A DNA stretch of 44,745 bases from the NCBI GenBank assembly GCA_003141315.1, contig PLLP01000021.1:53473-98217 (forward strand), in the 5' to 3' direction. The notes under the pieces were generated by a model. It did not search any database. It saw only the letters and a program-made list of their open reading frames with translations, and was not told the DNA's origin. The translations under genes were made by a program, and so were the position numbers. Source of the DNA: Phycisphaerales bacterium. GTDB lineage: Bacteria > Planctomycetota > Phycisphaerae > Sedimentisphaerales > Anaerobacaceae. Below, one piece after another: positions 7,135 through 28,474 of the stretch (positions are counted from its first letter, which is position 1; each line of letters begins with the position of its first letter).

Positions 7135-7213
7135 ACCCCGTTAGAGAGCTACACAGATTTCGGCAAATCGAGGGCAAATACTAAACCCTTGAAGCGTAGC
7201 TCTCTAACGGGGT
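7135..7213. mobile_element. MITE-like repeat element, copy 1 (79 bp)
   Basis: Perfect 18-bp terminal inverted repeats, ACCCCGTTAGAGAGCTAC at the left and its complement at the right. It fills the space between the convergent glycosyltransferase and mrdA genes, ending immediately beside the mrdA stop codon. It codes for nothing. The hairpin it would form could serve as a bidirectional terminator. Confidence 0.85.
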
Positions 7214-10697: not shown

Positions 10698-10810
10698 ACC
10701 CCGTTAGAAAACAATGTTCTCTAACAGTCTGAACTGACGGCGGCATTAAACCACAGTCGGCTTTAAACAATAGACCACCAATTAAAATCAGCGGCTTTCT
10801 CTAACGGGGT
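10698..10810. mobile_element. MITE-like repeat element, copy 2 (113 bp), between mreB and mreC
   Basis: The ends are ACCCCGTTAGAaAA and TTTCTCTAACGGGGT. Read on the minus strand its interior aligns with copy 3 (GCCGAC-x-TGGTTTAATG and TTTTAAT-x-GGTGG), proving common descent. A second TCTCTAAC lies internally (10719-10726) and could form an alternative hairpin with the left end. The flanks are AA-rich on both sides. Confidence 0.85.
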
Positions 10811-14311: not shown

Positions 14312-16111
14312 TTATGACCTTTTCATTGTAAAAAACATAGTAGCCAGGCCGGCAACAACAGCCCCGGCAAGGCAGACTGCACAGAAATTATCCAGCCATT
14401 GGCCGAACCTGCTGAATAAAGTAACCCTTTTATCTATCGGCAATTTATCAACAAACCATCCAGCCATTCCTTTGCGTTCTAATGCCCTTTTGGGGAGGTT
14501 TCCGGCGAGAAAACCATCCCTGATTTTTCCGGTCGAATCAATAAGGCAGGAGATGCCGGTATTGACGCTGCGGACAACGGGCGTCCTGTTTTCAACAGCC
14601 CTGAAAACGCAAATGGCGGTATGCTGGGCAAGTTCGGTGGATGGCTCTGCCCTGCCGTTGATAAACCCCATTGGAGAATCCCGATTAACATCGGCAGCCT
14701 TCTCTAACGGGGTAAATTTTACGAACCAGCCGTCATTGCTTATGTTGAGGAGCCAATCGACCTGTTTTTGGCCTTTGCTGTCGAGAATAAATTTTCTGGC
14801 AATTTGCGGCGTGGTATCCTCATAACAAATCATAACGGCAAATTTATAATTTTTTCGGGGAATATTGTCGGCAATATCTGTCCGCTGCAGTGATTGCGGA
14901 TAAATCTGAAAAATCGTAAATTCATCGCCGGCATCGAGGGAGTAATCAAAATCGTAAGGGGTGAACTTCATCAGGAGTTTGTGAAAGGTCGGGAAAGATT
15001 TTTTGAAAGGGACGTATTCGCCGAAGGGAACAAGGTGAATTTTATTATAATGGTCGAGAGCCTGCCGACCATCAGGAGTGTAGAGAAATGCGGAATTGCA
15101 TCTGCCGACCGATTCGAGCGAATAATCTTTATCATACTGTGGTTTCAGGCCGCTTGCACCGACGAGGATGTATGCCCTGCCCAGAGCGAGCAAAGAAAGT
15201 CTTGCATTAAAATACCGGAAATCCTGCCTGATAACCTGGTTATTCGAAAGGTCGAGCACGCCTGAGGGCGTGTCATCGAGATAGGCAGGTATCATAGTTT
15301 CCGGCCAGACGCACAAAGAAGCGCCGGCGGCAATAACCGAATTGCTGTCAGCGGCGAGTTTATTAAAAGTATCCTGGGCTACTTCATTCGAATCAAAGGC
15401 GCTTGCCTTGACAGATTGCGGAATACACGACTGGACGGCGCCGACAAGAGGCCCCTGCTCGATTATTGTATCGGTCTGCTGTATCCGCCACCGGCCGTAA
15501 AGAACTGTCGCAAAGATAAGCCCTGAAACAAAAACAGTCTTGAGCAGAAATTTGAAATTCGGAATCTGAGATTTCAAATTTACATAGATGATTTCCGCGA
15601 TGAGGGCGTTGACCATAGCGATAAGAAAAGAGACGCCCGCTGCTCCGAAGATGTCAGAAATCTGGATAAGGTAAAGGTTTTCGTACTGGCTGTGAGCAAG
15701 AAACCGCCAGAAAAAGCCGCCGAGAAAAAAACCCTGCAGCCTTTCAGCCCCGACGAAAAGGATGGGAACGGATATGAGGAGCGGAATTTTTTTTGCGGTG
15801 CAGAATCGCAGCGCGATAGCGAGAACAGGCCAAAAGACAGCCATATAAAGGCAGCCTGTGAGCCAGCCGGCAGTTGTCACGGGGATAAGCCAGTAAAGAT
15901 TGAATAGCCAGTATAAAAGTGAGATTATATAAGAGGCAAAAAGAAGGGGCTTTAACTTTTCTGCGGAAGTGCACACGAGGATAAACGGCACAAGTGCGAC
16001 AAACGCAAGAACAGAAAGACCAAACGGCGGCTGGATAACCGTAAGCAGGCCGGCAGAAAGTATCAGGAGTCCAAAGACGGATAACGAAATTTTATTTTTT
16101 ACTATTGTCAT
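14312..16111 (-). CDS. lnt: Apolipoprotein N-acyltransferase, carrying an in-frame repeat insertion
   Basis: About 599 residues (start ATG 16111; a TTG lies just before). It transfers an acyl chain to the N-terminal cysteine of lipoproteins in the inner membrane. The N-terminal half has about six membrane helices; the C-terminal half is a nitrilase-fold domain with the catalytic Glu in CVWPETMIPAY, Lys in HYNKIHLVPFGEY and Cys in FAVMICYEDTTP. A last membrane helix lies near the C terminus. After NISNDGWFVKF a 17-residue segment (TPLEKAADVNRDSPMGF) is encoded by a repeat element inserted in frame. It lies in a surface loop after the catalytic Cys, so activity may be kept. The gene overlaps the upstream DNA methyltransferase by 20 bp. 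Confidence 0.93.
   Translation of the reverse strand: MTIVKNKISLSVFGLLILSAGLLTVIQPPFGLSVLAFVALVPFILVCTSAEKLKPLLFASYIISLLYWLFNLYWLIPVTTAGWLTGCLYMAVFWPVLAIALRFCTAKKIPLLISVPILFVGAERLQGFFLGGFFWRFLAHSQYENLYLIQISDIFGAAGVSFLIAMVNALIAEIIYVNLKSQIPNFKFLLKTVFVSGLIFATVLYGRWRIQQTDTIIEQGPLVGAVQSCIPQSVKASAFDSNEVAQDTFNKLAADSNSVIAAGASLCVWPETMIPAYLDDTPSGVLDLSNNQVIRQDFRYFNARLSLLALGRAYILVGASGLKPQYDKDYSLESVGRCNSAFLYTPDGRQALDHYNKIHLVPFGEYVPFKKSFPTFHKLLMKFTPYDFDYSLDAGDEFTIFQIYPQSLQRTDIADNIPRKNYKFAVMICYEDTTPQIARKFILDSKGQKQVDWLLNISNDGWFVKFTPLEKAADVNRDSPMGFINGRAEPSTELAQHTAICVFRAVENRTPVVRSVNTGISCLIDSTGKIRDGFLAGNLPKRALERKGMAGWFVDKLPIDKRVTLFSRFGQWLDNFCAVCLAGAVVAGLATMFFTMKRS
14665..14713. mobile_element. MITE-like repeat element, copy 3 (49 bp), inside lnt
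   Basis: The minus strand reads ACCCCGTTAGAGAAG at one end and TTCTCCAATGGGGT at the other, so the terminal repeats match with two mismatches. The interior (GCTGCCGAT-x-TTAATCGG) is a shortened form of the interior of the other copies. The flanking bases are TTT before and TT after; removing 49 bp plus one TT restores AAATTTATC in frame. Confidence 0.85.
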
Positions 16112-17057
16112 CAATTTTGCAATCCATCAATACCGGCAAAACCGACTGGGTATCGAGTTTCTTTTGCGTGTTTAATCTGACTGAAAGCTGATTAACGAAT
16201 AAATTCAAAAGCGTTTTGTCGCCGGCAATTCGCTGAGCAGGCAAATTCATATCAACGGAAAGCCTTTTTAATTCGTTCAGCTCTTTTATATCCAAAAAAA
16301 GATTCTGCGATTTTTGTTTTTTCAACGACTCCAATCTCTTTATCGACTGCCTTACATACACTTTCGAGATTTCGATGCCGGCGAAATTTCTGCCGAGCCG
16401 GCGTGCAGCAGCAGCCGTGGTGCCGGAACCGCTAAAAGGGTCGAGGACGCAATCGCCGGGGTTCGAGCTGACGGCAATAATTCTCTGGAGGAGGTTTTCG
16501 GGCATCTGGCAGGGATGCCAGCCCTGCCTTTCCTTAAAAGTGCCGCAGACCCTCGAAAATTCCGCCCAGACGTCATCGGGAATCCTGCCCTTCGAATTGG
16601 CACGTTTGTCAGAGTAAATTAACTGCCTGCCTGACGGAATGCGGACAGCGAAATCGTTAAAGGTAAATTTTTTCTCATCATTTACGAAATAAAAAATGTG
16701 AGTATGCGAGCGGGCAAATTTTTGTTTCGTATGCTGGCCGAAAGAGTAGTGCCAGATAATCCAGTTGCGGAGGTGCAGGCCGATTTTGTCGCCGATGATT
16801 CTGACGTTGGCGGCGTAATCGTCGCCGATGGCGATATAGAAAGAGCCGGCTGGTTTGAGAACTTTTTTGCAGGCGGCCATCCATTCTTTTGTCCAGGCGA
16901 TGTATTTTTCCTTTTTGAGGTTGTCGTTGTATCTGTCGTATTTGTAGCCGATATTGAAAGGCGGGTCAGCGAAAATCAAATCCGCGAACGGTTCATTAAC
17001 CTTACCCAAAACCTTAATGCAGTCGCCGCAGATAATTTTGTTTAAGAAGTCTTTCAT
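16092..17057 (-). CDS. Orphan beta-class DNA methyltransferase (N6-adenine or N4-cytosine)
   Basis: A 321-residue SAM-dependent DNA methyltransferase. Motif IV D31-P-P-F34 precedes motif I/FxGxG (DPFSGSGTT, 206-214), the order of the beta class that includes CcrM- and HinfI-type enzymes. The DPPF form fits adenine-N6 or cytosine-N4 methylation but does not decide between them. A 90-residue C-terminal extension beyond the catalytic domain could be a DNA-binding part. No restriction gene is nearby, so it is probably a solitary regulatory methyltransferase. There is no Shine-Dalgarno before ATG 17057. The promoter/5' region is duplicated upstream of the M23 gene. The 3' end overlaps lnt. Confidence 0.88.
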   Translation of the reverse strand: MKDFLNKIICGDCIKVLGKVNEPFADLIFADPPFNIGYKYDRYNDNLKKEKYIAWTKEWMAACKKVLKPAGSFYIAIGDDYAANVRIIGDKIGLHLRNWIIWHYSFGQHTKQKFARSHTHIFYFVNDEKKFTFNDFAVRIPSGRQLIYSDKRANSKGRIPDDVWAEFSRVCGTFKERQGWHPCQMPENLLQRIIAVSSNPGDCVLDPFSGSGTTAAAARRLGRNFAGIEISKVYVRQSIKRLESLKKQKSQNLFLDIKELNELKRLSVDMNLPAQRIAGDKTLLNLFVNQLSVRLNTQKKLDTQSVLPVLMDCKIDDNSKK

Positions 17058-28350: not shown

Positions 28351-28474
28351 CCCCGTTAGAGAAAGCCGCCGACCCGCTGCGACGCATCGCGGCGAGTTTT
28401 AATCGGTGGCCAATATTGCCTAAAGCCGACGATGGTTTAATGCTACCGCCTTCCAGCAGATTCTCTAATGGGGT
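28351..28474. mobile_element. MITE-like repeat element, copy 4 (124 bp)
   Basis: The ends are GCCCCGTTAGAGAA and TTCTCTAATGGGGT. The interior (AGCCGC ... TTTTAATCGGTGG ... AAAGCCGAC-x-ATGGTTTAATG) aligns with copy 2, with an extra segment of about 27 bp. It ends exactly at the stop codon (CTA on the plus strand, 28475-28477) of the displaced ETF-QO 3' end. It separates the ECF operon from the methyltransferase. Confidence 0.85.

Follow-up and report, generated by a model that had tools for sequence, protein, structure and literature searches.

How a short palindromic segment has come to lie in frame within lnt, the essential apolipoprotein N-acyltransferase gene of a Phycisphaerales bacterium, and what enzyme could have put it there, are the questions raised by the stretch of DNA analysed here (the window: 44,745 nucleotides of contig PLLP01000021.1, positions 53,473 to 98,217 of the forward strand). 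Comparison with other copies and with relatives confirms that the segment is a real mobile hairpin element, inserted in frame; it is probably a non-autonomous (MITE-like) copy of a palindromic transposon that encodes a GIY-YIG nuclease.

The insertion in lnt

The product of lnt matches solved Lnt structures (E 5e-13), and homologues are found in 40 of the 41 genomes searched. The features of the locus, in window positions, are:

14312..16114, minus strand: lnt, apolipoprotein N-acyltransferase, 600 aa, TTG start, host of the insertion (open frame, solved Lnt structures, homologues)
14666..14712, minus strand: palindromic mobile element, non-autonomous, 47 bp, CCCC...GGGG (boundaries from 81 copies, hairpin fold, empty sites)
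14713..14716, minus strand: left TTTA copy of the 4-bp target duplication (family boundaries and sequence)
14662..14665, minus strand: right TTTA copy of the 4-bp target duplication (family boundaries and sequence)
14700..14712, minus strand: left terminal inverted repeat CCCCGTTAGAGAA, an exact match to the family end motif
14666..14678, minus strand: right terminal inverted repeat TTCTCCAATGGGG, with two substitutions relative to the family sequence TTCTCTAACGGGG

On the minus strand the locus reads AAA-TTTA-CCCCGTTAGAGAAGGCTGCCGATGTTAATCGGGATTCTCCAATGGGG-TTTA-TC. The 13-bp arms are complementary at 11 of 13 positions, and the insert folds at -13.3 kcal/mol against a shuffle mean of -5.2 (z = -4.4; 0/200 shuffles as good). 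The two substitutions in the right arm imply that this insertion is probably not brand new. At an AAA-TTTA-TC target the gain is 47 + 4 = 51 bp, so that the frame is still open and 17 codons have been added. The insert is absent from all 29 alignable Lnt relatives, which belong to other genera, and in 22 of these the net length difference is exactly 17 residues; where the relatives have RF-K-DGK, this genome has KF-[17]-I-NGR.

Much of this had been anticipated by an initial annotation of the window, which described a mobile repeat within lnt that adds 51 bp (17 codons) directly after the NISNDGWF block without frameshift or stop, and which proposed the comparison with relatives. Relatives with 17 unrelated residues at this place, or an ancient insert conserved as protein, would have spoken against it, and neither was encountered. 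Its proposal that a mobile element has here become protein holds as far as the open, in-frame insert is concerned; the presence of the 17 extra residues in a working Lnt is a prediction from the open frame. They may be tolerated by virtue of their placement in what the alignment suggests is a variable loop (its length differs by a few residues among relatives).

Short copies, their target duplication and their residence in genes

The ends of the family are terminal inverted repeats of about 12-16 bp, CCCCGTTAGAGA...TCTCTAACGGGG. With up to one mismatch, a search of the 2.35-Mb genome for the 13-base end motif gives 70 occurrences, versus 3 for the reversed control. The stretches of this genome that were examined contain at least 36 different copies with paired ends, 29-123 bp in length (these counts, from searches and examined stretches, are lower bounds). 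With relatives included, sizes span 29-143 bp. A variant end, CCCCGTGRGA, sought in relatives, is present in G005 only. The end-motif search places three further copies in the window:

7136..7212, plus strand: family copy, 77 bp, intergenic, flanks TTTA / TCTA
10699..10809, minus strand: family copy, 111 bp, intergenic, exact duplication (TAAA on the plus strand, TTTA on the minus strand)
28351..28473, plus strand: family copy, 123 bp, flanks CCTG / TCTA

Duplication statistics were drawn from 81 copies in this genome and relatives, picked without regard to their flanks. Exact 4-bp repeats flank 36 of these (shuffle mean 7.2, maximum 17), exact 5-bp repeats flank none, and 45 copies have no exact duplication. 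Matches between flanks at the four positions number 61, 57, 62 and 62, versus shuffle means of 43, 27, 26 and 43, each above all shuffles, and the neighbouring positions show no covariation beyond shuffles. Exact 4-bp repeats together with covariation confined to four positions imply that the target duplication is 4 bp. The exact duplications include TTTA, TTTG, TTGA, TTAG, CTTA, CCTG and CCCG, with C mostly next, and the target preference is mostly YYNR before C. The initial annotation had divided the lnt locus differently, into a 49-bp element and a duplicated TT, and had expected a 2-bp duplication at other copies; 49 bp plus TT and 47 bp plus TTTA are the same letters in another partition, in which the outer A and T count as target. 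A 2-bp duplication with ACCCC/GGGGT ends is ruled out, since the outer bases vary, and covary, within the 4-bp duplication.

Inverted repeats, short length, want of a gene and a fixed 4-bp duplication are the properties of a MITE, and the lnt copy has them all. The interiors of the short copies hold no recognisable remnant of a GIY-YIG gene. The family is widespread, being present in several phyla, and apparently undescribed.

Residence within genes is a recurring property. In-frame copies are found within lnt, polA, dnaE, ribF, addB, a lolC/E-like gene and prepilin genes of this genome; relatives have them in gcvT, in moeA and in a helicase gene of the dinG/yoaA type. Palindromes in frame in unrelated protein genes are thus found repeatedly, which is a feature of the Rickettsia palindromic elements. 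Alignment of PolA with E. coli polymerase I leaves a gap of exactly 12 residues, equal to a 32-bp element plus 4 bp. Copies within conserved genes contain no stop codon, and their length plus 4 is divisible by three (as it is for 58 of the 81 copies overall); two of the three forward frames are open at both element ends.

The prepilin insertions are particularly regular. The site GGN-TTCA becomes GGN-TTCA-CCCCGTTAGAG...CTCTAACGGGG-TTCA, and the product, GFTPLE...SLTG^FTLIE, has a longer leader and a regenerated cleavage motif. In a scan of 84,980 species genomes this right junction was found in 30 contigs, whose hosts include Planctomycetota, Omnitrophota, Ratteibacteria, Auribacterota, several Patescibacteria groups and others. 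Upstream, 24 of these contigs also have the left end, with no more than one mismatch and usually with the matching 4 bp in front of it. (These contigs were selected by their right flank and do not enter the duplication statistics.)

In moeA, two genera carry in-frame copies at the same site with similar residues, PLEIRGAKRKQKAKNPLTGF and PLEIPGSEREQKAKNSLTGF (L102 of G011 and L161 of G003); this may reflect either inheritance of one insert that has been retained as protein or insertion on more than one occasion.

A full-length unit with a GIY-YIG gene

A longer form of about 280 bp has the same ends as the short copies and a single gene, for a small GIY-YIG nuclease. Such units are found in this genome, in Omnitrophota, Ratteibacteria and Patescibacteria, and in another order of the phylum. 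In this genome the GIY-YIG match (C10:30775-30978; PF01541, E 9e-16) lies exactly within element ends at C10:30754-31032, so that a related, gene-bearing candidate for the autonomous unit is present in the same genome as the lnt copy. Among end pairs 251-311 bp apart in 37 genomes, further GIY-YIG units occur in Nealsonbacteria and in Omnitrophota, where there are five, some of them decayed; the other pairs at this spacing enclose no GIY-YIG frame and seem to be adjacent short copies. Exact duplications of TTTA, TAAG and TGAA surround three full-length units. Two Omnitrophota units are 90% identical in unrelated flanks, from which it appears that the unit itself has moved.

In Patescibacteria a relative of the GIY-YIG protein (E <= 1e-15) is found in 169 of 380 genomes. 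Of the 25 best-scoring parsed genes, 18 lie inside 12-bp inverted repeats (0-1 mismatch), with 0/50 control windows doing so. Pooled with an earlier set, 23 of 30 parsed genes (one locus, L255 = L269, being counted twice) lie inside inverted repeats, which are missing at the other 7; 8 have exact duplications, a somewhat optimistic count because the search also favoured matching flanks. End sequences vary between clades of the gene. In six element proteins Y3, Y16, G18, R26, H30, E62 and N76, which make up the nuclease core, are invariant, and changes among the element genes are mainly at third positions. Identities of 77% and 74% to copies in other phyla, versus 55% to a copy in the same phylum, support transfer across phyla. 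The exact DNA pattern of the right end was sought in viral contigs and not found there; one relative of the protein, 53% identical, is on a viral contig.

In most units no stop codon is encoded by the element, and the GIY-YIG ORF is open up to the final base of the right end. The stop is then a TAA or TGA formed by the three flanking bases next to the element, or the ORF fuses to a host gene; thus a 280-bp unit in Ratteibacteria (L173) encodes a complete nuclease fused through ...FLSLTG to prepilin. In seven Patescibacteria units (L271, L274, L276, L280, L281, L287, L294) the ATG of the downstream gene is at the junction. In most of these start-codon units the last base of the element and the duplication rebuild the ATG, which overlaps the stop of the nuclease ORF.

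The comparison of sequences establishes insertion, empty sites, a 4-bp duplication, in-frame residence in genes that are essential or conserved, recurrence in prepilin genes and GIY-YIG genes inside the same ends. The nuclease is the likely mobilising enzyme, and would act in trans on the short copies. In the mechanism that we propose, the palindromic element inserts with duplication of a 4-bp target, mostly YYNR ahead of C. The nuclease would recognise the element ends, cut targets with a 4-nt stagger and mobilise its own unit as well as short copies in trans; its ORF usually takes a stop codon from the flanking target or fuses with the host gene. Copies would persist inside genes because frames are open at both ends, because length plus duplication is mostly a multiple of three, and because some sites restore a host signal, namely the prepilin G^F motif or the ATG start codon. 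The prepilin and start-codon sites show how insertion can leave a host gene intact.

On balance we lean towards a new class of DNA transposon, about 280 bp long, with a GIY-YIG nuclease as its sole gene and as its transposase, inverted repeats of 12-16 bp, a 4-bp duplication, spread across phyla, MITEs that become protein, and a borrowed stop codon or host fusion, the latter at places like the prepilin cleavage motif. If so, a one-gene GIY-YIG transposon of this size would be among the smallest autonomous elements.

Three further observations concern the GIY-YIG genes and their surroundings. A 14-nt internal stretch, ATTTACGGAAACGC, is invariant at the DNA level in six units (L259, L255, L253, L264-L266) and is partly inverted as GCGTTTCC beside the right end; it is possibly a second recognition site. 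Sister GIY-YIG genes in L243 (G005) and L245 (G014) adjoin, rather than lie inside, palindromes with related ends (CCCCGTGAGATAA; CCCCGGTGGGAT). A different GIY-YIG gene, around 1444-1740 of L228 (G027), has perfect inverted repeats CCGTCACTTGATTTA and is apparently within a 23S rRNA gene, possibly as an intron or intervening sequence.

Alternative enzymes and known systems

The preferred reading, in which the GIY-YIG nuclease moves the short copies, competes with others. Terminal inverted repeats and a duplication of fixed length are typical of DDE elements, and an ordinary MITE, moved in trans by a DDE transposase with 4-bp duplication, might account for the lnt copy if the GIY-YIG units were captured cargo. 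Some genomes with short copies do have no close GIY-YIG relative: none was found in G022 or G031, both of which are rich in short copies, so that one has to suppose there either a different enzyme or that the autonomous copy has been lost. We nevertheless consider this reading unlikely. In the stretches examined no DDE gene was seen within a larger unit bounded by matching ends, and end pairs with equal flanks 170-5000 bp apart turn out to be adjacent short copies or a GIY-YIG unit. Moreover, the one-gene architecture is common to several phyla, and end sequences differ according to gene clade. A PF13340 search of this genome returned nothing. The short copies resemble MITEs in being geneless, dispersed in many copies, and bounded by terminal inverted repeats and a fixed-length duplication; what sets them apart is the enzyme of the gene-bearing form, a GIY-YIG nuclease, which is outside the known transposase classes.

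HUH transposition makes no target duplication, and a 4-bp duplication of varied sequence is accordingly not its product. This counts against mobilisation of a REP- or TIR-type element by a tyrosine transposase of the IS200/IS605 kind (Y1, HUH; RAYT or TIRYT, for example), with the GIY-YIG gene as a passenger, a possibility that we rate as rather improbable. Y1 genes are present in 33 of the 41 genomes, with three matches in this one, and hairpin elements of Planctomycetes have been linked to Y1-type enzymes (PMC3733652). The likeness to REP/REPIN and RAYT/TIRYT systems extends to short, numerous hairpins, some of them inside genes; the difference is that the present elements have a 4-bp duplication, no GTAG/CGTC tag and no linked Y1 gene. 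Element ends were sought at 30 Y1 loci and in the three Y1 stretches of this genome, and all 33 are without them; the only gene found between ends is the GIY-YIG gene. (An argument for HUH enzymes from same-strand TTYR on both sides was dropped, the pattern being what duplication alone yields.)

In other systems there are translational bypass elements that are associated with homing nucleases, and the lnt hairpin sits in a conserved gene; the insert might therefore be removed or skipped at the level of RNA or translation (intron-like, or by bypass), giving an Lnt without the 17 residues. This is very doubtful: removal or skipping needs no keeping of frame, yet copies in conserved genes have a length plus 4 divisible by three and no stop codon, and Rfam contains no family matching the element. 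That the segment is a chance or ancient loop, accidentally palindromic and immobile, is, in spite of the slightly differing Lnt loop lengths of relatives, refuted by its identity to dozens of dispersed copies, its target duplication and its empty sites.

To our knowledge, the GIY-YIG fold is not known for transposons with inverted repeats, and the literature surveyed (preprints and most subscription papers lay outside its scope) contains no description of the end sequence, of the prepilin insertions, or of an inverted-repeat transposon with GIY-YIG as sole gene. The GIY-YIG family itself occurs in selfish elements of more than one kind, several being described (PMC1564403). The homing elements among them, such as the I-TevI group, are alike in that a nuclease of this superfamily spreads the DNA that encodes it, but they have one cognate site and neither duplication nor inverted repeats, whereas the present elements have inverted repeats, duplicate 4 bp and occupy many targets that are unrelated to one another, so that they are not of the homing type.

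Rickettsia palindromic elements, for which we know of no assigned enzyme, are the nearest parallel to the copies read as protein. They are short palindromes that, at high frequency, lie in frame in unrelated protein genes and are translated (PMC10969869). The likeness is in this mode of residence; by description, the two are set apart, the Rickettsia elements being about 150 bp long and of other sequence, and the present ones 29-143 bp long, in another host group and in several phyla, with a gene-bearing GIY-YIG form. As far as we have found, a candidate enzyme for the entry of palindromes such as these into protein genes was previously lacking. Shared ends and duplications tie a short in-frame palindrome to a gene-bearing form with one nuclease, which makes the question testable in the laboratory.

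Y1 enzymes were encountered in quite another setting. A valyl-tRNA synthetase of 1349 aa (L146, 1738-5787, minus strand; G000:C14) contains an in-frame Y1-transposase/RAYT-like domain between LRYPLEEPVE and YVTVATTRPETML, together with in-frame peptides of another repeat family (GTGFQPV, HGQDARAT, TGKMPVP). The same arrangement may underlie the Y1 matches in G007, G019 and G023, which fall in ORFs of 1220-1312 aa.
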